Below are positions 14,153-27,753 of a DNA stretch of 64,000 nt, piece after piece. A program made the translations under genes and the position numbers. Source of the DNA: Ahrensia sp. (GTDB taxonomy: Bacteria; Pseudomonadota; Alphaproteobacteria; Rhizobiales; Rhizobiaceae); NCBI GenBank assembly GCA_002706335.1, contig PAKZ01000037.1:124001-188000 (forward strand). Reading direction: 5' to 3'. How positions within the stretch are numbered: position 1 is the first letter of the stretch; each line of letters opens with the position of its first letter. The notes under the pieces were generated by a model. That model made no database searches. It was not told where the DNA came from and saw nothing but the letters and a program-made list of their open reading frames with translations.

Positions 14153-14405
14153 GCATTCTGGCGAAACGGGTTTCGGCAACCGAAGACGGTTGCCAGATCC
14201 GCAGTGGCATCCGGAACCCCCCGCCGACAGCCTGAAACCGATTACGTCCGCCACAGGCGTTCTCGCCGAACGCGGTCAGCGCGATCGGCCTTGGCGTCAG
14301 CGCGTCTTCGTCCATGATGGTTGGAAGCGTGGCCCCATACGCGGCCGGGCGGACGGTGTTTCGGATCGACAAACGACTGGAAGCTTACAGCCAGCGTCTA
14401 CATAC
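14153..14405. other. Intergenic region before the GTA promoter
   Basis: Between the terminator at 14123-14152 and the element at 14406. I see no convincing coding region or structured RNA. If the GTA activator needs IHF or another upstream site, it would be expected here. Confidence 0.35.
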
Positions 14406-14470
14406 AGGAATAAATTCCTTGACGCCGTCGCGCCCTTTTGATACCCTCCGGGCATAATCGTAAAATTGGG
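14406..14470 (+). promoter_or_regulatory. GTA promoter element, copy 1 (inverted repeat plus -35/-10)
   Basis: The segment starts with the inverted repeat GGAATAAATTCC (14407-14418), directly abutting a -35-like TTGACG (14419-14424). With 17-base spacing comes TACCCT (14442-14447). A second -10-like box, CATAAT (14453-14458), is conserved in the other copy. The same element occurs at 17917-17981; the first 24 bases are identical, and the CATAAT and AATTGGG blocks are kept at the same distances. Only the GTA g1/g2 genes follow, so this is the likely GTA operon promoter. The inverted repeat may be the site of the activator or repressor. Promoter function is inferred. Confidence 0.7.
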
Positions 14471-14499
14471 CCCGGCGCCTTCGCGCCGCGGCCCTTTTT
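14468..14499 (+). terminator. Intrinsic terminator or attenuator directly after the GTA promoter, copy 1
   Basis: A GC-only stem of about 11 base pairs with a small bulge: GGGCCCGGCGC at 14468-14478 pairs with GCGCCGCGGCCC at 14483-14494 around a CTTC loop, followed by TTTTTG. It begins only about 10-20 bases after the likely transcription start, so unassisted transcripts would be about 40-50 nt. It is 274 bases before the g1 start codon. Confidence 0.75.
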
Positions 14500-14772
14500 G
14501 TTGGCCGTAATCAGGCCGCGTTCTTGCGCGCAAGCACCCGGATGCGGCTGTCGAATTCGCCGCGGTCCAAATATGTGTCGGAAAACAAGCGGCGCGCCAG
14601 CTTTGTTGGCGGACAGATTGCCGGTCCAGCGAGGTGGCGGCCACCATTTGTAGGCCTTTGCGTGCGGGGCGTTCTGCTGACGCCCAAGGACAACGGGCAT
14701 GTCGATATTCCGTTGAGACAGGTCGAGATTAGCGCCAATTCGAAAACCCGGCAATCGAAAGGAGAACGAGCG

Positions 14773-15213
14773 ATGAGCGAGGATTCGGAACCGCGGCCCT
14801 CTGCCCGGGCCCTGCTTCATGACACGCCCGAAACCGCGGAGCGTTTCCATGGTTATGGCCTGAAGGACTATTCCTATCCGCGCATCGGTCTGGAGGAATC
14901 CGTGCACAGGAACACGGTCATGTATTTCCTGCAGGGCGCGCCGCAGAGCCGGCGACGTTACCAGGAAGGCAAGGCCGAGGCGCGCATGGAAAAACGCAAC
15001 GCGCGGCTGGCCGGCATCGCGCCGGAAAGAGGCTCGGACTGCCCCGCGCCCGGCGAAATCTGCCCGACCTGCGGCGGCCTTGTCGGTTTCCAGGAAGAAA
15101 CCGTAACCCTCACGACGGCCGAACTGGCGGAAGCGCGGAGGAAGTATGAAGACCTCATCGATCGACACCTGTCCGCCCAAACGGCTTCTTGCGATGAAGG
15201 AGGTGGCCAGTAG
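14773..15213 (+). CDS. GTA g1-position protein, candidate small terminase or packaging adaptor
   Basis: A 146-residue protein in the place occupied by g1 (the small terminase-like protein of RcGTA), overlapping the large terminase start by 68 bases. The N-terminal half is rich in charged residues (PRIGLEESVHRNTVMYF, RRRYQEGKAEARMEKRNARL). The middle carries a CPAPGEICPTCGG segment that resembles a zinc ribbon, and the C-terminus is a helix (TTAELAEARRKYEDLIDRHL). GGAGAACGAG precedes the ATG. I cannot confirm homology to RcGTA gp1; position and helix content are the main support. Alternatively it is an unrelated gene that precedes the GTA in this lineage. Confidence 0.55.
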   Translation: MSEDSEPRPSARALLHDTPETAERFHGYGLKDYSYPRIGLEESVHRNTVMYFLQGAPQSRRRYQEGKAEARMEKRNARLAGIAPERGSDCPAPGEICPTCGGLVGFQEETVTLTTAELAEARRKYEDLIDRHLSAQTASCDEGGGQ

Positions 15214-16465
15214 CCTCGACAGCCTGCAGCGTCTGCGTGACTGGGCATTCTGGGCGCGGCCCGGACAGACCGAGCCGCCCGGCGACTGGCGCACCTGGCT
15301 GATCCTGGCCGGGCGCGGCTTCGGCAAGACGCGGGCCGGCGCGGAATGGGTGCGCGAACAGGTGCGGCGCGGGCGAGGGCGCATCGCGCTTGTCGCGCCA
15401 ACCATGGCCGATGCGCGCGACATCATGGTGCGCGGCGAGAGCGGGCTTCTGTCGGTGTGCTGGAAAGGCGACCACACCCCGGAGGGTCGGCTGACGGGGC
15501 GGCCGCATTACATGGCGAGCCGCCGCCGGCTGGTCTGGAAAAACGGGGCGCAGGCGATGCTGTTTTCGGCGGAGGAGCCGGAACGGCTGCGCGGGCCGCA
15601 GCACGATGCGCTGTGGGCCGACGAATTGTGCGCGTGGCGGTATGCGCGCGAAACATGGGACATGGCGATGTTCGGACTGCGCCTCGGCCGCGATCCGCGC
15701 GCCTGCGTGACGACCACGCCGAAGCCGCTGAAGCTTATCAAGGAGCTGGCGGACGATCCGGCGACGATGGTGACGCGGGGCACGACCTTCGACAATGCAA
15801 AGAATCTGGCGCCGGGCTTCATCGCCTCGGTCCGGGCGAAATATGCCGAAACGATGCTGGGAAAGCAGGAGCTTATGGGCGAATTGCTGACGGAACGCGA
15901 GGGCGCGCTGTGGTCGCGCGCGAGGCTCGACGCACAGCGGCGGCCGACGCCCGCCGATCTGCGCCGCATCGTGGTCGCCGTCGATCCGCCGGCGGGCTCG
16001 AAGGCAAGCTCGGATGCCTGCGGCATCGTCGCGGCGGGTCTGTCAACTGACGGAAAGGCGCATGTTATCGCCGATGCGAGCATCCGCGCGGCCAGGCCGG
16101 ACGTCTGGGCGGCGCGCGCGGTGGCGCTCTACGAGACGCTTCGCGCCGATCTGATGCTGGCCGAGGTCAACCAGGGCGGCGATATGGTGGAGGCCGTGAT
16201 CCGGCAGGTCGAGCCGCGCGTGGCGCTGAAGAAGGTGCATGCCAATCGCGGCAAGCGGCTGCGCGCCGAACCGGTCTCCGCGCTCTACGAGCAAAAGCGC
16301 GTGACGCACGCGCCGGGGCTCGATGCGCTGGAAGACGAAATGTGCGCCTTCGGCACGGACGGGCTAGCATCTGGCCATTCCCCGGATCGGCTCGACGCGC
16401 TGGTCTGGGCGATCAGCGAACTGATGCTGACCCCTCGCGGCGAGCCCCGGGTGAGGGGGCTGTGA
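15146..16465 (+). CDS. GTA large terminase (g2-like packaging ATPase/nuclease)
   Basis: A 439-residue large terminase. The ATPase domain has Walker A GRGFGKTRAG (residues 56-65, Lys61) and Walker B ending in DALWADE (Asp159-Glu160). The RNase H-like nuclease domain starts at VVAVDPPAGS (Asp280) and has later acidic residues in VNQGGD and SPDRLDALVW. It cuts and pumps DNA into the capsid at the portal. The ATG at 15146 has GGAGG close upstream; a second ATG at 15194 has no such site. It is followed, 19 bases after the stop, by the convergent qorB-like gene, which splits it from the portal gene. Confidence 0.95.
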   Translation: MKTSSIDTCPPKRLLAMKEVASSLDSLQRLRDWAFWARPGQTEPPGDWRTWLILAGRGFGKTRAGAEWVREQVRRGRGRIALVAPTMADARDIMVRGESGLLSVCWKGDHTPEGRLTGRPHYMASRRRLVWKNGAQAMLFSAEEPERLRGPQHDALWADELCAWRYARETWDMAMFGLRLGRDPRACVTTTPKPLKLIKELADDPATMVTRGTTFDNAKNLAPGFIASVRAKYAETMLGKQELMGELLTEREGALWSRARLDAQRRPTPADLRRIVVAVDPPAGSKASSDACGIVAAGLSTDGKAHVIADASIRAARPDVWAARAVALYETLRADLMLAEVNQGGDMVEAVIRQVEPRVALKKVHANRGKRLRAEPVSALYEQKRVTHAPGLDALEDEMCAFGTDGLASGHSPDRLDALVWAISELMLTPRGEPRVRGL

Positions 16466-16484
16466 GGCCCCCTCGGGCTGCGGC

Positions 16485-17372
16485 TTAAGCCGCCTTCTGC
16501 TGTTTTACGGCTTCGGCGACCGTCTCGCTCCAGGGCGTGGTCGGGCGACCGATGAGGTCCGACAGCGTCTTCGAATTGTCTTCCAGCGCGCCTTTCGCCG
16601 TGCCGGCGTCGCTATCGGCGAGCATCGCCGCGATCGGGGCGGGCAGGCCCACGCCCTCGAGCATGGCGGCATAATCGGCCTCGCTCATATCGGCATAGGC
16701 GACCGGCTTTCCGGCGGCTTGCGCGATTGCGTCGGCGAAGTCCTGCATGGAGAAGCTCGTATCGCCCGCCAGTTCGTAGACGGCGCCGTTTTCAAGCGTG
16801 TCGGCGGTCAGCACCGCGACCGCAGCCTCGGCGTAATCGGCGCGCGGGGCGCTGGAAATGCGTCCGTCGCCGGCCGCGCCCGGATAGGCGCCATGCTCGA
16901 CCGCCGGTGCGATGGATCCGGTCTTGTTCTCGGTGTACCAGCCATTGCGCAGGAGGGCATACGGGATGGCGGAGGCGGCGAGCTGGGCTTCCGTCTCGCG
17001 GTGCTCGACCGCGAGGCTGAGCGGCGAGGTATCGGCGTGCAGGATCGATGTGTAGGCGATGAAGCCGACGCCGGCCTTCTTCGCCGCGTCGACGGCGTTC
17101 TTGTGCTGGGCTGCTCGCTGGCCGACTTCCGACGACGAGATCAGCAGCAGCCGGTCGATGCCGGCGAAGGCCTTTTCGAGCGCGGCGACGTCGGTATAGT
17201 CGCCGATGCGCACCTCGACACCCTTCGCTTCCAGCGGCGCGGCGGCTTCGGCCCGGCGGACGAGCGCGACGACCTGGGAGGCGGGGACTTTCTTCAACAG
17301 GGCGTCGATGGCGAGCGCGCCAAGCTGGCCGGAGGCGCCGGTGACGAGATATTTCGCGGTTGTGGCAGTCAT
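16485..17372 (-). CDS. qorB: NmrA-like NAD(P)H:quinone oxidoreductase (QorB/YtfG type), inserted in GTA cluster
   Basis: A 295-residue SDR-type protein. It has TGASGQLGALAIDALLKK at the N-terminus (dinucleotide-binding loop), VVALVRR (NADP-favouring strand end), LLLISSSEVGQRAAQHKNAVDAAKKAGV and YTSILHADTSPL. This pattern matches E. coli QorB (YtfG), an NADPH-dependent quinone reductase. It is divergent from an HxlR-family regulator, the same pairing as ytfG-ytfH. It is not a GTA gene, lies antisense to the GTA genes and converges on the terminase. The product is expected to be cytosolic and to protect against quinones or related electrophiles. Confidence 0.85.
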   Translation of the reverse strand: MTATTAKYLVTGASGQLGALAIDALLKKVPASQVVALVRRAEAAAPLEAKGVEVRIGDYTDVAALEKAFAGIDRLLLISSSEVGQRAAQHKNAVDAAKKAGVGFIAYTSILHADTSPLSLAVEHRETEAQLAASAIPYALLRNGWYTENKTGSIAPAVEHGAYPGAAGDGRISSAPRADYAEAAVAVLTADTLENGAVYELAGDTSFSMQDFADAIAQAAGKPVAYADMSEADYAAMLEGVGLPAPIAAMLADSDAGTAKGALEDNSKTLSDLIGRPTTPWSETVAEAVKQQKAA

Positions 17373-17411
17373 GGGAGGTATCCTTTCAAGCTTCCATATA
17401 GTCTCGGAATG

Positions 17412-17435
17412 AGGTATGGTCTCTTTCAGATACCT
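17412..17435. promoter_or_regulatory. Candidate HxlR operator between qorB and its regulator
   Basis: Inverted repeat AGGTAT (17412-17417) and ATACCT (17430-17435) separated by 12 bases, in the 97-base divergent promoter region. A further AGGTATC half site lies at 17376-17382 next to the qorB start. Inverted repeats of this kind are typical for dimeric winged-helix HxlR proteins; binding is inferred. Confidence 0.5.
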
Positions 17436-17469
17436 ACTGATGGCTGGCTTTGGAAGGAGGCAGTTTTTC

Positions 17470-17910
17470 GTGACCAGGACACATGCGAGTAACCTCCCGG
17501 ACCAAACGGAGGCCGTGCTGCGCGACTTCGCGGTGCAGTCGGAGGGAAAGACCGACTATGCGAACTGCCCGGTGCGCGACGTGCTCGACCGGGGGGGCGA
17601 GAAATGGACGCTTCTGATCCTCGTTGCGCTGGCAGAGGAGCCGAAGCGCTTCTCGGCGCTGCAACGCGATGTTGGAGATATCTCCAAGCGTATGCTGACG
17701 CAGACGCTTCGCACGCTGGAGCGCGACGGGCTTGTGGAACGCACGGTCTACCCGACCAAACCGCCCTCGGTGGACTACCGCCTGACCGCCCTGGGCCGCT
17801 CCGCGCTGAACCCGCTCGCCAGCCTGATCGGCTGGGCCGCCGAAAGCCACGACGAGATCCGCGCGGCGAGGGCGGAGTATGATGAGAGGGAAGTGGTGGG
17901 GGCTTGGTGA
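17470..17910 (+). CDS. HxlR-family (YtfH-like) winged-helix regulator
   Basis: A 146-residue regulator. The HxlR signature CPVRDVLDRGGEKWTLLILVAL is followed by RFSALQRDVGDISKRMLTQTLRTLERDGLVERTVYPTKPPSVDYRLT, the winged helix. One Cys in the YANCPV segment is in the position that senses thiol-reactive compounds in QorR/YodB-type members. GTG at 17470 is chosen as start because AAGGAGG (17454-17460) lies nine bases before it; ATG at 17416 or 17440 would give a longer N-terminus. It probably represses qorB and itself. Its stop is only six bases before the second copy of the GTA promoter element. Confidence 0.85.
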   Translation: MTRTHASNLPDQTEAVLRDFAVQSEGKTDYANCPVRDVLDRGGEKWTLLILVALAEEPKRFSALQRDVGDISKRMLTQTLRTLERDGLVERTVYPTKPPSVDYRLTALGRSALNPLASLIGWAAESHDEIRAARAEYDEREVVGAW

Positions 17911-17916
17911 AATTAG

Positions 17917-17981
17917 AGGAATAAATTCCTTGACGCCGTCACGCTCCTCTGGTAGCCTGTTGGCATAATCGCAGAATTGGG
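17917..17981 (+). promoter_or_regulatory. GTA promoter element, copy 2, upstream of the portal gene
   Basis: Second copy of the element at 14406-14470, shifted by 3511 bases. It has inverted repeat GGAATAAATTCC (17918-17929), TTGACG (17930-17935), a 17-base spacer, TAGCCT (17953-17958), CATAAT (17964-17969) and AATTGGG (17975-17981). The 24 bases at its start are identical to copy 1, while the spacer and downstream stem differ. It lies between the inserted HxlR gene and GTA g3, so it would restore transcription of g3 and later genes. Confidence 0.7.
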
Positions 17982-17987
17982 TTTGAG

Positions 17988-18015
17988 GCCGGATGGTTCG
18001 CCATGCCGGCTTTTT
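17988..18015 (+). terminator. Intrinsic terminator or attenuator after the GTA promoter, copy 2
   Basis: Stem GCCGGATGG with one bulged base against CCATGCCGGC around a TTCG loop (arms 17988-17996 and 18001-18010), followed by TTTTT. The stem sequence differs from copy 1 but the fold and position are the same. It is 200 bases upstream of the portal start codon. Confidence 0.75.
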
Positions 18016-18215: not shown

Positions 18216-19397
18216 ATGAATCAGACTTCCAAGTGGCTGGCCCGGGCTTTCGAGCGCGGCCGGACGTCTCGTGCCGTCAAGCCTTACGAGGCGAAGGCTT
18301 GGCCGACGGGTTTTATCGCCATGCATGGTGCGGCGGCCGCGTCCTGGACGCCGGCTTCCTATGGCGCGCTGTCGCGGGAAGGCTTCATGCGCAATCCGGT
18401 GGTGCATCGCTGCGTGCGGATGATCGCCGAAGCGGGCGCGGCGGTGCCGTGGCTGGCTTACGAGGGCGACCGGGAGGCGCCGGACAGTCCGGCGCTGGCG
18501 CTAGTCGCAAGGCCGAACATGCGCGACAGCCGGGCCGGTTTCCTCGAGACGCTTTACGGACATCTGCTGCTGTCCGGCGACGCTTTTGTCGAACGCGCGG
18601 GCGAGGGAGACGGCGAGGCGCTTTACCTGCTGCGGCCCGACCGGGTGTCGGTCGTCACCGGGCCGGACGGCTGGCCGGTCGCGGTCGACCATCAGGCCGG
18701 TGCGACGAAGCGTCGGATCCCCTTCGAAGGCGAAGACGGCGCGCAGCGGCTGTTGCATCTGTCGCTGTTCCATCCGCTCGACGATCTGCGTGGATTCGCG
18801 CCGCTGGAGGCGGCGCTGATGGCGCTCGACATTCACAATGCCGCAGGCGCCTGGAACAAGGCGTTGCTGGACAATGCCGCCCGGCCCTCCGGCGCGCTGG
18901 TTTATGCGCCGGCGGAAGGCGGCAGCCTCGCGCCGGAACAGTTCGAGAGGCTGAAGCAGGAACTGAACGAGGAATATGGCGGCGCGGCGAATGCCGGCCG
19001 GCCGATGCTGCTGGAAGGCGGTCTCGACTGGAAGGCGATGGGCCTGACGCCGAAGGATATGGATTTCGTCGAGGCGAAGCATGCGGCCAGCCGCGACATC
19101 GCGCTCGCCTTCGGCGTGCCGCCGATGCTGCTCGGCATTCCGGGCGACAACACCTATGCCAATTACCGCGAGGCGAACCGCGCCTTCTACCGGCTGACCG
19201 TGCTGCCCATGGTGGCGCGCACGGCGGATGCCTTTGCAAGATGGCTGGGCCAGGGGAGCTTGCGGCTTGCGCCGGATATCGACGCGATCGAGGCGCTGTC
19301 GTCGGAGCGCGATGCGCTGTGGGCGCGGCTGGAACGGGCGAGCTTTCTTAGCGACGACGAGAAGCGGGAAGCGGTGGGGTATGGGGGGAAGGGGTAG
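18216..19397 (+). CDS. GTA portal protein (g3-like, HK97-type portal)
   Basis: A 393-residue portal protein of the phage HK97 family. Motifs are NPVVHRCVRMIAEAGAAVPWLAYEG near residues 60-85, LLSGDAFVER, LHLSLFHPLDDLRGFAPLEAA and, in the C-terminal half, FVEAKHAASRDIALAFGVPPMLLGIPGDNTYANYREANRAFY, a strong portal signature. It forms the dodecameric DNA-entry ring at one capsid vertex and docks the terminase. The ATG at 18216 is chosen because the family begins here; the in-frame extension back to 18003 runs through repeat DNA and is unlikely to be translated. RcGTA gp3 has a similar length. Confidence 0.93.
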   Translation: MNQTSKWLARAFERGRTSRAVKPYEAKAWPTGFIAMHGAAAASWTPASYGALSREGFMRNPVVHRCVRMIAEAGAAVPWLAYEGDREAPDSPALALVARPNMRDSRAGFLETLYGHLLLSGDAFVERAGEGDGEALYLLRPDRVSVVTGPDGWPVAVDHQAGATKRRIPFEGEDGAQRLLHLSLFHPLDDLRGFAPLEAALMALDIHNAAGAWNKALLDNAARPSGALVYAPAEGGSLAPEQFERLKQELNEEYGGAANAGRPMLLEGGLDWKAMGLTPKDMDFVEAKHAASRDIALAFGVPPMLLGIPGDNTYANYREANRAFYRLTVLPMVARTADAFARWLGQGSLRLAPDIDAIEALSSERDALWARLERASFLSDDEKREAVGYGGKG

Positions 19398-19897: not shown

Positions 19898-20555
19898 CGG
19901 CAAACGCCTCGAACACAAGTTCAACCGGGTGGAACTGGAGGGCGGGGACGGCACGATCGCCGGCTACGCCTCGGTCTTCGGCGCGGTCGATCTGGGCCGG
20001 GACGCGGTCGAGCGCGGGGCCTTCGAAAAGTCGCTGACGGCGCGCGGCGCGACCGGCATCCGCATGCTGTTCCAGCACGATCCGGCGCAAGTGATCGGCC
20101 GCTGGACGGCGATCCGCGAGGATGCTCACGGGCTCTATGTCGAGGGGAAGATCTCGACCGAAGTGGCGAAGGGCCGCGAGGTGCTGGCGCTTTTGCGCAA
20201 TGGCGGGCTCGACGGGCTCTCCATCGGCTTCCGGACGGTGAAGGCGCGCAAGGAGGCGCGCTCCGGCGTGCGGCGCATTCTGGAGGCCGATCTCTGGGAG
20301 ATCTCGGTCGTCACCTTTCCGATGCTGCCGCAGGCGCGCGTCACGGCCGTGAAGGCCGGACGGCTGCCGACTGCACGCGAATTCGAACGCTGGCTCGTGC
20401 GGGACGCCGGGCTAACGCGAAGCGAGGCCAAGGCGGTGATCGCCGGCGGCTTTGCGCAACTGAGACGCCGCCGGGACGGCGCGCCGGACGAACCGGGCCT
20501 TGCGGAGACGATCCGCGCCGCCGCCCGGCACCTTCAACCGACACGAGGACAATGA
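19887..20555 (+). CDS. GTA prohead protease (g4-like, HK97 protease family S78)
   Basis: A 222-residue protease. The N-terminus has the typical GTIAGYASVFGAVDLGRDAVERGAF. The catalytic His lies in LFQHDPAQVIGRW (about residue 64) and the catalytic Ser in GLDGLSIGFRTVKAR (about residue 112). The EADLWEISVVTFPMLPQARV segment is also diagnostic. It cleaves the scaffold-like N-terminus of the capsid protein during maturation. Its C-terminal 60 residues may help assembly. The stop overlaps the capsid start (20552), as expected for co-translated head genes. Confidence 0.93.
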   Translation: MRADGKRLEHKFNRVELEGGDGTIAGYASVFGAVDLGRDAVERGAFEKSLTARGATGIRMLFQHDPAQVIGRWTAIREDAHGLYVEGKISTEVAKGREVLALLRNGGLDGLSIGFRTVKARKEARSGVRRILEADLWEISVVTFPMLPQARVTAVKAGRLPTAREFERWLVRDAGLTRSEAKAVIAGGFAQLRRRRDGAPDEPGLAETIRAAARHLQPTRGQ

Positions 20556-21799
20556 TGAGACAGGACAATCTGGCAGCGCCCGAGGTGAAATCGGGCGGGA
20601 GCGGCGATGTCGCCGAGGCCTTCGACGACTTCATGCACGCTTTCGACGAGTTCAAGCAGGCCAATGACGAGCGGCTTGCGCAGATCGAGAGCCGCTTCGG
20701 CGTCGACGGCGTGACGAATGACAAGGTCGAGCGCATCAACCTGGCGCTGGACGAACAGAAGCGCGCGCTCGACGCGCTGCAGAGGAAGCAGGCCCGCCCG
20801 CCGCTCGGCGGCGGCAGTATCGAGCCGAGCGAGCACAAGGCCGCCTTCGAGAACTATGTGCGGCGCGGCGACGAGCGCCGGTTGCAGGCCCTCGACGCGA
20901 AGGCGATGAGTATCGGCTCCGGACCCGACGGCGGCTATCTCGTGCCGCCCGAAACGGAAGCGGCAATCGGCGCGCGCATGCGCGATATCTCGCCGATCCG
21001 CTCGATTGCGACCGTGCGGCAGGTCTCCGGCTCGGTGCTGAAGAAGCCCTTTGCCATCGGCGGCCCGGCGGTCGGCTGGGTCGGCGAGACCGCTGACAGG
21101 GAGCAGACGGCGAGCCCGACGCTGAAGGAACTGCAGTTCCCGACGATGGAGCTTTACGCGATGCCGGCGGCGACGGCGGCGCTGCTGGAGGATTCCGTGG
21201 TCGATATCGACCAGTGGATCGCCTCCGAAGTGGAGGCGGCGTTCGCCGAGCAGGAGGGCGCAGCCTTCGTCGCGGGCATCGGCGGCACCCAGCCGCAGGG
21301 ATTCCTCGACTACGATCAGGTGGCCGAGTCGAGTTGGGCCTGGGAGAAGATCGGCTATATCGCGACCGGCGTAGACGGCGCATGGCCGGCCTCCGATCCG
21401 TCGGACAAGCTGATCGACCTCGTCTATGCGCTCAAGGCCGGTTACCGGCAGAACGCGTCCTGGGTGATGAACCGTAAATCGCAGGCCGCGATCCGCAAGT
21501 TCAAGGACGCCGACGGCAACTATATCTGGCAGCCGCCGGCCGGGGCGGGGCAGCGCGCCATGCTGATGGGCTTCCCGCTGGTCGAGGCCGAGGACATGCC
21601 GGATATCGGCTCGGACGAGACCTCGGTCGCCTTCGGCGATTTCCGCCGCGGCTATCTCGTCGTCGACCGAACCGGCGTCTCTGTGCTGCGCGACCCGTAT
21701 TCCGCCAAGCCCTACGTGCTGTTCTACACGACCAAGCGCGTCGGCGGCGGGGTGCAGGATTTCGACGCGATCAAGCTGCTCAAATTCGGCGCCGCCTGA
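20552..21799 (+). CDS. GTA major capsid protein (g5-like, HK97 fold)
   Basis: A 415-residue capsid protein. Residues about 1-110 are charged and helical (the delta domain removed by the protease). The HK97 core begins around MSIGSGPDGGYLVPPETEAAIGARM, with IRSIATVRQVSG, VGWVGETADREQTASPTL, QEGAAFVAGIGGTQPQGFLDY and the C-terminal DFRRGYLVVDRTGVSVLRDPY. These are typical for RcGTA-like capsids. The probable cleavage site lies near residue 115-125. After the stop comes 216 bases of repeat and hairpin DNA and then a host oxidoreductase on the other strand. Confidence 0.95.
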   Translation: MMRQDNLAAPEVKSGGSGDVAEAFDDFMHAFDEFKQANDERLAQIESRFGVDGVTNDKVERINLALDEQKRALDALQRKQARPPLGGGSIEPSEHKAAFENYVRRGDERRLQALDAKAMSIGSGPDGGYLVPPETEAAIGARMRDISPIRSIATVRQVSGSVLKKPFAIGGPAVGWVGETADREQTASPTLKELQFPTMELYAMPAATAALLEDSVVDIDQWIASEVEAAFAEQEGAAFVAGIGGTQPQGFLDYDQVAESSWAWEKIGYIATGVDGAWPASDPSDKLIDLVYALKAGYRQNASWVMNRKSQAAIRKFKDADGNYIWQPPAGAGQRAMLMGFPLVEAEDMPDIGSDETSVAFGDFRRGYLVVDRTGVSVLRDPYSAKPYVLFYTTKRVGGGVQDFDAIKLLKFGAA

Positions 21800-27174: not shown

Positions 27175-27753
27175 TTGGACCAAAACCTTACCATCGCCAT
27201 TGAAGCCGACACGATCGGATTCGAGACGGCGCTGAAAGACCTCGAGCGGCAGGCATCGTCTTTCGGAGCCACCCTGACCGGCGCGCTTCGCGGCGCGGTT
27301 GTCTCGGGCAATTCGCTGGAGGACACGCTGCGATCGATCGGCCAGAGCCTGGCGACCAACGCACTGAATGCGGGGCTCAAACCGCTGCAAGGCTTGCTCA
27401 ACGGCTTCGCGGCACAGGCCTTTTCCGGTTTCGCCGGCGTGCTGCCTTTCGCGAAAGGCGGCGTGGTCGGCGCGGACCGGATGTTTGCAGGCGGCGGCGT
27501 GTTGGCCTCGCCCGCCTATTTTCCGATGGCCGGCGGTCGCACCGGCCTTGCAGGCGAAGCGGGGCCGGAAGCGATCCTGCCGCTGAGGCGGGGCGCGGAC
27601 GGACGCCTTGGCGTGGCGACCGATGGGGGTGGTGCGCCGACGACGGTCAATGTGACGATCCAGACGCAAGACGCCAATTCCTTCCGCAAGTCGGAAGCCC
27701 AGGTGACGGCGGCGCTGGCCCGCGCCGTGGCGCGCGGCCGGCGGGGAAACTGA
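27175..27753 (+). CDS. GTA tape measure protein (g11-like, short type)
   Basis: A 192-residue protein with helical N-terminus (FETALKDLERQASSFGATLTGALRGAVVSGNSLEDTLRSIGQSLATNALNAGLKPLQ), followed by FAKGGVVGADRMFAGGGVLASPAYFPMAGGRTGLAGEAGPEAILPLRRGADGRLGV, the signature of short phage tape measure proteins. This sets the tail length of a short-tailed particle. The start is a TTG at 27175-27177 with AGAGGAGC upstream; no ATG fits. The preceding 120 bases come from the inserted Nudix module, so the promoter or start context may have been rebuilt here. Confidence 0.88.
   Translation: MDQNLTIAIEADTIGFETALKDLERQASSFGATLTGALRGAVVSGNSLEDTLRSIGQSLATNALNAGLKPLQGLLNGFAAQAFSGFAGVLPFAKGGVVGADRMFAGGGVLASPAYFPMAGGRTGLAGEAGPEAILPLRRGADGRLGVATDGGGAPTTVNVTIQTQDANSFRKSEAQVTAALARAVARGRRGN

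Follow-up and report, generated by a model that had tools for sequence, protein, structure and literature searches.

Among the closest described counterparts of the element considered here is PgtaT of Caulobacter crescentus, the promoter of a gene transfer agent (GTA) cluster. As described in PMC11150451 and PMC9632790, PgtaT has a palindromic site between -35 and -10, GafZ and GafY are encoded as a pair, a RogA-type motif precedes gafYZ, and there is a terminator to pass. PMC11150451 places the GafY element at -123 to -113, far upstream of a weak -35 element, and the putative GafZ site (designated ZBE) between -35 and -10, and reports that a near-consensus -35 rendered the promoter active irrespective of GafYZ. 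RogA, a LexA-like repressor of gafYZ, is described in PMC9632790 as binding a region with two GGAA-N4-TTCC repeats. The PR' promoters of phages lambda and 21, served by Q, combine a box between -35 and -10 with a -10-like sequence in the accounts given in PMC6606751 and PMC7876045. In the Pseudomonas AlpR-AlpA-PalpB system, according to PMC9371919, an auto-cleaving repressor controls the anti-terminator AlpA, which loads between -35 and -10 at a sigma-dependent pause ahead of an intrinsic terminator. How GafZ defeats terminators, and whether it is Q- or AlpA-like, are named as open in PMC11150451, which states that Caulobacter GafZ has no similarity to Q-type anti-terminators. Here, these systems are compared with a pair of promoter elements found in a 64,000-nt stretch (the window) of contig PAKZ01000037.1 of Ahrensia sp. 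(Alphaproteobacteria; Rhizobiales).

The two elements form a 68-nt pair (positions 14403-14470 and 17914-17981) with 82% identity, a spacing of 3511, and an identical 24-nt block. They are evident both from direct reading and from a repeat search, and the likeness is above chance. Each consists of a palindrome, a -35 element with a box in the spacer behind it, a -10 element, a -10-like hexamer, and an intrinsic terminator (Table 1). Copy 1 lies upstream of a small gene and the terminase gene, and copy 2 is flanked by the genes for an HxlR-type regulator and the portal. The genes that follow form an RcGTA-type cluster, with terminase, HK97-type portal, protease, capsid, and GTA-type tail genes in that order, so that the duplicated GTA promoter of the original prediction is confirmed as an element standing before two segments of such a cluster. 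In the 5.1-Mb genome, GGAATAAATTCCTTGACG has 2 exact occurrences, and the sole further match at up to 3 mismatches has three. The shorter AGGAANNNNTTCCT is found in 5 places; at 3 of these it reads AGGAATNNATTCCT, compared to 0.064 expected from the base composition of the window, and the three sites are copy 1, copy 2, and a site just upstream of gafY. We propose, with a probability of about 0.7, that both elements are Q-type anti-termination promoters of the GTA cluster under the control of a repressor.

Conservation of the element was assessed with a profile, a sequence-only model built from 13 elements, in samples of 249 genomes of the order (E ≤ 0.001), 101 relatives, own genome included (E ≤ 0.01), and 289 genomes from across the class. 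The alignment counts cover 45 genera, with one element per genus and L042 excluded; some of the stretches fetched for these genera have no GTA gene inside. The 45 elements are profile matches, so that their transcribed region is partly selected. Because the model includes that region, an independent set of 105 distinct matches, retrieved by a -35 to -5 pattern alone, was examined as well. The conserved block extends from -49 to +17 and ends abruptly. The mean information among the 45 genera is 0.045 in the upstream flank, 1.47 in the palindrome box, 1.92 in the -35 element, 1.23 in the spacer, 1.35 in the -10 element, 0.93 in the initial transcribed region, and 0.12 after it. Columns conserved in at least 89% of the genera include, in the upstream part, all four positions of GGAA along with TCC in the palindrome, TTGAC, both CGT and ACG of the spacer (17 bp long), and T-17. 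Downstream, they include TAG and T of the -10 element, G-3, A+1, T+5, C+6, A+9, A+11, T+14, G+15, and G+17. In the independent set, A+1 and T+5 are present in 102 of the 105 matches, T+14 G+15 in 76, and G+17 in 71.

The box between -35 and -10, CGT-N-ACG, is found in 39/45 genera. It is an inverted repeat, unlike the Q-binding element of phage 21, described as a direct repeat in PMC6606751. The -10-like hexamer lies 11 bp after the -10 element, with A2 and T6 in 43/45 genera; 6 nt precede the predicted start, which has the Y-R-Y pattern in 44/45 genera. PMC7876045 gives the same 11-bp distance, a 6-nt spacer, and Y-R-Y as features of lambda pR' and G1d pauses, and places the pauses at 16 to 20 nt. 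The full elemental-pause pattern for a pause at +16 (G+7, T+14, G+15, Y+16, and G+17) is present in 27/45 genera. A candidate pause hexamer of this kind sets the element apart from the Caulobacter promoter as described in PMC11150451. The layout had been likened to that of an anti-termination start site, and the comparison supports this: -35, spacer box, -10, -10-like hexamer, and, within the genus, terminator are arranged as in such promoters.

The two hairpins in the window have energies of -23.2 (copy 1) and -16.5 kcal/mol (copy 2), and both have a loop of 4, with one base left unpaired in the 3' arm. Neither terminator is listed by simple scans of the window for terminators and promoters, probably because the terminator scan allows no bulge. 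Within the genus, a terminator is present at 9/9 elements found (in five genomes), with the hairpin starting between +15 and +32. Since MAFFT misaligned these terminators, their stem pairs were compared by structure instead. In all of them, a single base in the 3' arm of the stem is unpaired, and most positions show paired two-sided substitutions, including GC to CG, GC to UA, and GC to AU. These compensatory changes among congeners bear out the earlier claim of a terminator at each element whose stems diverge while the fold is kept. In Caulobacter, as described in PMC11150451 and PMC9632790, the terminator comes after the first gene, whereas here it directly follows the start. A short terminated RNA would likely be a by-product.

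The element is found in 135 of the 249 genomes of the order, with a single match in 121 of them, and in 75/101 genomes of the relatives sample. In the class-wide sample, 5/289 genomes match, of which two are outside the order, both with weak scores (E values of 7e-4 and 9.5e-4). Distances to the terminase gene terL were taken from 112 of the 135 element genomes; 19 of these have no listed terL, which leaves 93. In 88/93, the element and terL share a strand, with the element 388 to 3519 bp upstream (median, 666); in the remaining 5, the two are on different contigs (four genomes) or 47 kb apart (one genome). A named scan with the -35 to -5 pattern returned 111 stretches, cut at 8 kb or less, 32 of which show none of four GTA core genes and at least 4 of which are dispersed copies from the G286 assembly. 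The 80 of these 111 that are listed come from genera such as Mesorhizobium, Nitratireductor, Rhizobium, Kaistia, Stappia, Methylopila, and Aurantimonas and from less precisely named bins. With the pattern shortened by one base, a viral collection yields 25 contigs, and each of the 25 has one or more of the genes for terminase, portal, protease, and capsid. An Rfam search gave no match, and among the literature titles and abstract openings listed none was found that describes such a promoter in the order.

A mucR-gafY-gafZ locus lies ~22 kb upstream of copy 1. The gafY product matches the Pfam family Bac_DnaA_C and the gafZ product DUF6456; the equation of DUF6456 with GafZ is based on the Pfam match, the neighbouring gafY, and synteny with mucR and sufE as described in PMC9638019, with sufE identified by eye. 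DUF6456/GafZ is encoded in 134/135 element genomes and in 67/114 element-free ones (p = 6e-18; this test and those given below for the repressor candidate ignore shared ancestry).

Both window palindromes, AGGAATAAATTCCT, and the site at gafY are exact matches to GGAA-N4-TTCC. Across the genera, GGAA-N4-NTCC is present in 37/45 and the strict GGAA-N4-TTCC in 12/45, the last T of the right half being variable. Given this match to the RogA repeat and the presence of the same motif before gafYZ, the palindrome is predicted to be more likely a RogA-type repressor operator than an activator site. Unlike in Caulobacter, the RogA-type motif abuts the -35 element of the cluster promoter itself, and in this respect the element also differs from lambda and 21 PR'.

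A candidate repressor with S24 and HTH domains is encoded in 182/249 genomes, usually once. The comparison covered 115 element genomes, three of them (G061, G086, and G098) taken from the relatives sample; in 17 of the 115, the match to the profile begins after model position 10. These box-less elements have kept the -10 and the transcribed region; in G086, the palindrome is displaced by ~20 bp upstream, the others are without one, and the spacer box is altered in several (G061, G291, G211, G304, G285, and G078). Genomes without the S24/HTH candidate have an excess of box-less elements, with p values from 8e-7 to 4e-5 depending on the threshold, or from 6e-6 to 3e-4 with G086 moved. A palindrome with at most 1 mismatch is found in the gafYZ region of 10/18 genomes with the S24 candidate and 0/12 without it (p = 0.0016; n = 30), and 7 of these 10 palindromes are followed, 11 to 28 nt downstream, by the start of an open reading frame (ORF) of 102 to 152 aa.

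In the proposed mechanism, a RogA-like repressor of the LexA family would sit on GGAA-N4-TTCC beside the -35 element. Upon its departure, the housekeeping RNA polymerase would initiate at the predicted starts, sigma might re-bind the -10-like hexamer at -1 to +5, and the polymerase would pause near +16; unaided, it would stop at the terminator ~45 to 50 nt downstream. The gafYZ genes, the source of GafZ, would be under the same operator in their upstream region. GafZ (DUF6456) is predicted to bind the CGTNACG box and join the paused polymerase, which could then read through this and later terminators, and copy 2 would re-initiate transcription behind the inserted HxlR-NmrA cassette. Since Q and AlpA both rely on a -10-like sequence together with a box located between -35 and -10, we regard the element as a lambda-style switch in which GafZ takes the place of Q. 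A promoter with a strong -35 element, which in Caulobacter was active regardless of GafYZ (PMC11150451), would need another lock, here the operator and the terminator.

The inverted repeat had been proposed as a GafY activator site, in which case the element would be positively activated, with or without subsequent anti-termination. A GafY homologue (Bac_DnaA_C) is encoded here, the palindrome is centred near -41.5, a class II activator position, and GafY is reported in PMC9632790 to bind the gafYZ and GTA promoters of Caulobacter, both of which bear the palindrome here. However, the motif matches the reported RogA repeat, loss of the box accompanies loss of the S24 candidate, and 18 nt separate the end of the AGGAATNNATTCCT site at gafY from the predicted ATG, too short a distance for activation from -41.5. 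Nor does the promoter resemble the GafY/IHF-activated one of Caulobacter: its -35 is near consensus, not weak, and a -35 of this kind bypassed GafYZ in the work described in PMC11150451. No conserved upstream GafY or IHF site is seen here, as every column from -228 to -51 stays at or below 0.26 bits in the 45 genera and neither ACTATG (GafY) nor a strict IHF consensus occurs at -160 to -50 in any of them. This part of the original prediction is not upheld, and we consider activation by GafY from the palindrome improbable. Another doubtful possibility is that the conserved segment from +1 to +17 works as RNA or as another operator (nut/put-like, or part of a small RNA) and not as a sigma-dependent pause signal. 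Bases +6 to +17, beyond the -10-like hexamer, are indeed also conserved, but the spacing and the A2/T6 pattern agree with the description of sigma pauses, and folds within the genus show no shared hairpin ahead of the terminator.

It might also be that copy 1 alone drives the cluster and that copy 2 is a roleless by-product of cassette insertion. In all five genomes of the genus that carry the element, the HxlR-NmrA cassette separates terminase from portal, and three of these (G001, G004, and G005) have no copy before the portal, which begins within ~80 bp of HxlR. Yet copy 2 retains every element, its terminator differs by paired changes, and a copy between cassette and portal is also found in G003, the only other genome of the genus that has it besides the present one (G000). 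In G075, from another family, three copies precede the terminase, portal, and capsid segments, so a roleless copy 2 seems unlikely. The number of copies in the genus varies from three in G003 and two in G001 to one each in G004 and G005 and none in G002; the presence of several copies in some clusters is a further difference from Caulobacter. In G003 and G001, an extra element (L135:6956 and L137:6917, minus strand) precedes the cluster at a distance of 36 kb, and the gene behind it is a paralogue, with 37 to 40% identity, of the small gene that follows copy 1.

Several observations weigh against a repressed anti-termination promoter. DUF6456 is present in 67 genomes in which the element was undetected, and the association tests disregard ancestry, as noted above. 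The hairpin energies are unimpressive on their own relative to shuffles (z scores of -1.95 and -0.60), so that support for the terminators comes from the comparison of congeners. Beyond the genus, with one element per genus, a terminator is found within +9 to +108 in only 18/45 genera, compared to 7/45 in upstream controls (p = 0.018), 4/45 further downstream (p = 0.001), and 55/225 shuffles (p = 0.04); an immediate terminator is therefore clear for the genus and simply enriched elsewhere. The spacer box of copy 1 has GCG in place of ACG in its right half, and the outer pair of the spacer palindrome, which is variable, shows no covariation (21/45 genera paired, p = 0.42). Both window copies have G at +16, where the pause consensus is a pyrimidine, and the authors of PMC7876045 report having found no elemental-pause motifs close to their G1 pauses. 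The S24 candidate retains a GDSM motif, whereas Caulobacter RogA is reported in PMC9632790 to be without cleavage residues, and it is retained in 6 to 10 of the 17 box-less genomes, depending on the threshold. The same source finds enrichment of Caulobacter RogA at two promoters only, that of gafYZ and one other, and none at the GTA cluster. The original prediction had named the presence of copies before many unrelated genes as evidence against itself; such copies are absent from this genome, where the window elements are the only profile matches, but one genus, g75, has up to 15 dispersed copies that the anti-termination account leaves unexplained.

A wider proposal, to which we give about even odds, is that the order has a lambda/AlpA-like GTA circuit, with a LexA-family repressor on the GTA promoter and GafZ as an unrelated Q-like anti-terminator acting on sigma-paused polymerase. 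The cluster would be poised with aborted leader RNAs and, in some genomes, re-started inside cargo-split clusters. With the repressor motif placed at the cluster as well, two locks would keep the GTA silent. The arrangement would be comparable to that of AlpR-AlpA-PalpB as described in PMC9371919, although the proteins are different, the operator is also on the target promoter, and a GTA takes the place of lysis genes as the output. The conserved -10-like hexamer at lambda spacing makes the question of how GafZ acts concretely testable, and the element provides a promoter-level marker for GTAs across the order.

Table 1. Positions of the promoter elements and neighbouring genes in the window
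Feature	Positions	Strand	Remarks
Palindrome AGGAATAAATTCCT, copy 1	14406..14419	+	predicted RogA-type repressor operator, centre near -41.5
-35 element TTGACG, copy 1	14419..14424	+	TTGAC in 44/45 genera
Spacer box CGTCGCG (consensus CGTNACG), copy 1	14426..14432	+	predicted GafZ loading element between -35 and -10
-10 element TACCCT, copy 1	14442..14447	+	TA at -12/-11 in 45/45 genera
-10-like hexamer CATAAT, copy 1	14453..14458	+	initial transcribed region; predicted start 14454, predicted pause near 14469
Intrinsic terminator, copy 1	14468..14499	+	hairpin 14468-14494, then T-run
Small gene behind copy 1	14773..15213	+	no Pfam or NCBIfam match
GTA terminase large subunit	15146..16465	+	Pfam PF03237/PF17289
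Non-GTA cassette between terminase and portal	16485..17910	.	NmrA-like (minus), HxlR-type regulator (plus); Pfam
Palindrome AGGAATAAATTCCT, copy 2	17917..17930	+	predicted RogA-type operator
-35 element TTGACG, copy 2	17930..17935	+	
Spacer box CGTCACG, copy 2	17937..17943	+	
-10 element TAGCCT, copy 2	17953..17958	+	
-10-like hexamer CATAAT, copy 2	17964..17969	+	predicted start 17965, predicted pause near 17980
Intrinsic terminator, copy 2	17985..18015	+	hairpin, then T-run
GTA portal, first gene behind copy 2	18216..19397	+	Pfam PF04860, TIGR01537
GTA major capsid	20552..21799	+	Pfam PF05065, TIGR01554
RcGTA-type tape measure	27175..27753	+	NF058675 RcGTA_tape, E 1e-46, below cut-off (159/220 bits)

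Variant forms of the element are found in several genomes. In four of the box-less genomes, G065, G261, G281, and G238 (family f6; L334, L338, L342, and L343), the palindrome and the -35 element are lost, and the -10 and the transcribed region are kept; this is perhaps a switch to activator dependence. A GGAACAAA-type palindrome with TTGAC stands before small genes, with no GTA seen, at L035:4291 and L037:4510 (G037), both removed from the set of 63 matches, and on the minus strand of L049 (G043), outside that set. The small genes behind the L035 and L037 palindromes are similar by eye, and the three sites are possible other targets of the same repressor.

The dispersed g75 copies (L090-L109), which reach 15 core elements per genome in G286, are mostly away from terL. 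They have a degenerate palindrome and strongly keep the spacer box AGCGTNACGCT and the transcribed region, and 8 of the 20 fetched copies have a same-strand ORF ending at most 40 bp upstream. In G009 (L040:4855-7605), the GTA is eroded: behind the element stand a terminase fragment and, immediately after it, a tail gene, but the promoter is kept. An inverted HxlR-NmrA cassette is found between terminase and portal in G087 (L046), a member of another family. The gene at 78-1094 of the window has no Pfam match and lies 13 kb from the cluster, and its relatives are found near the GTA cluster in many genomes.

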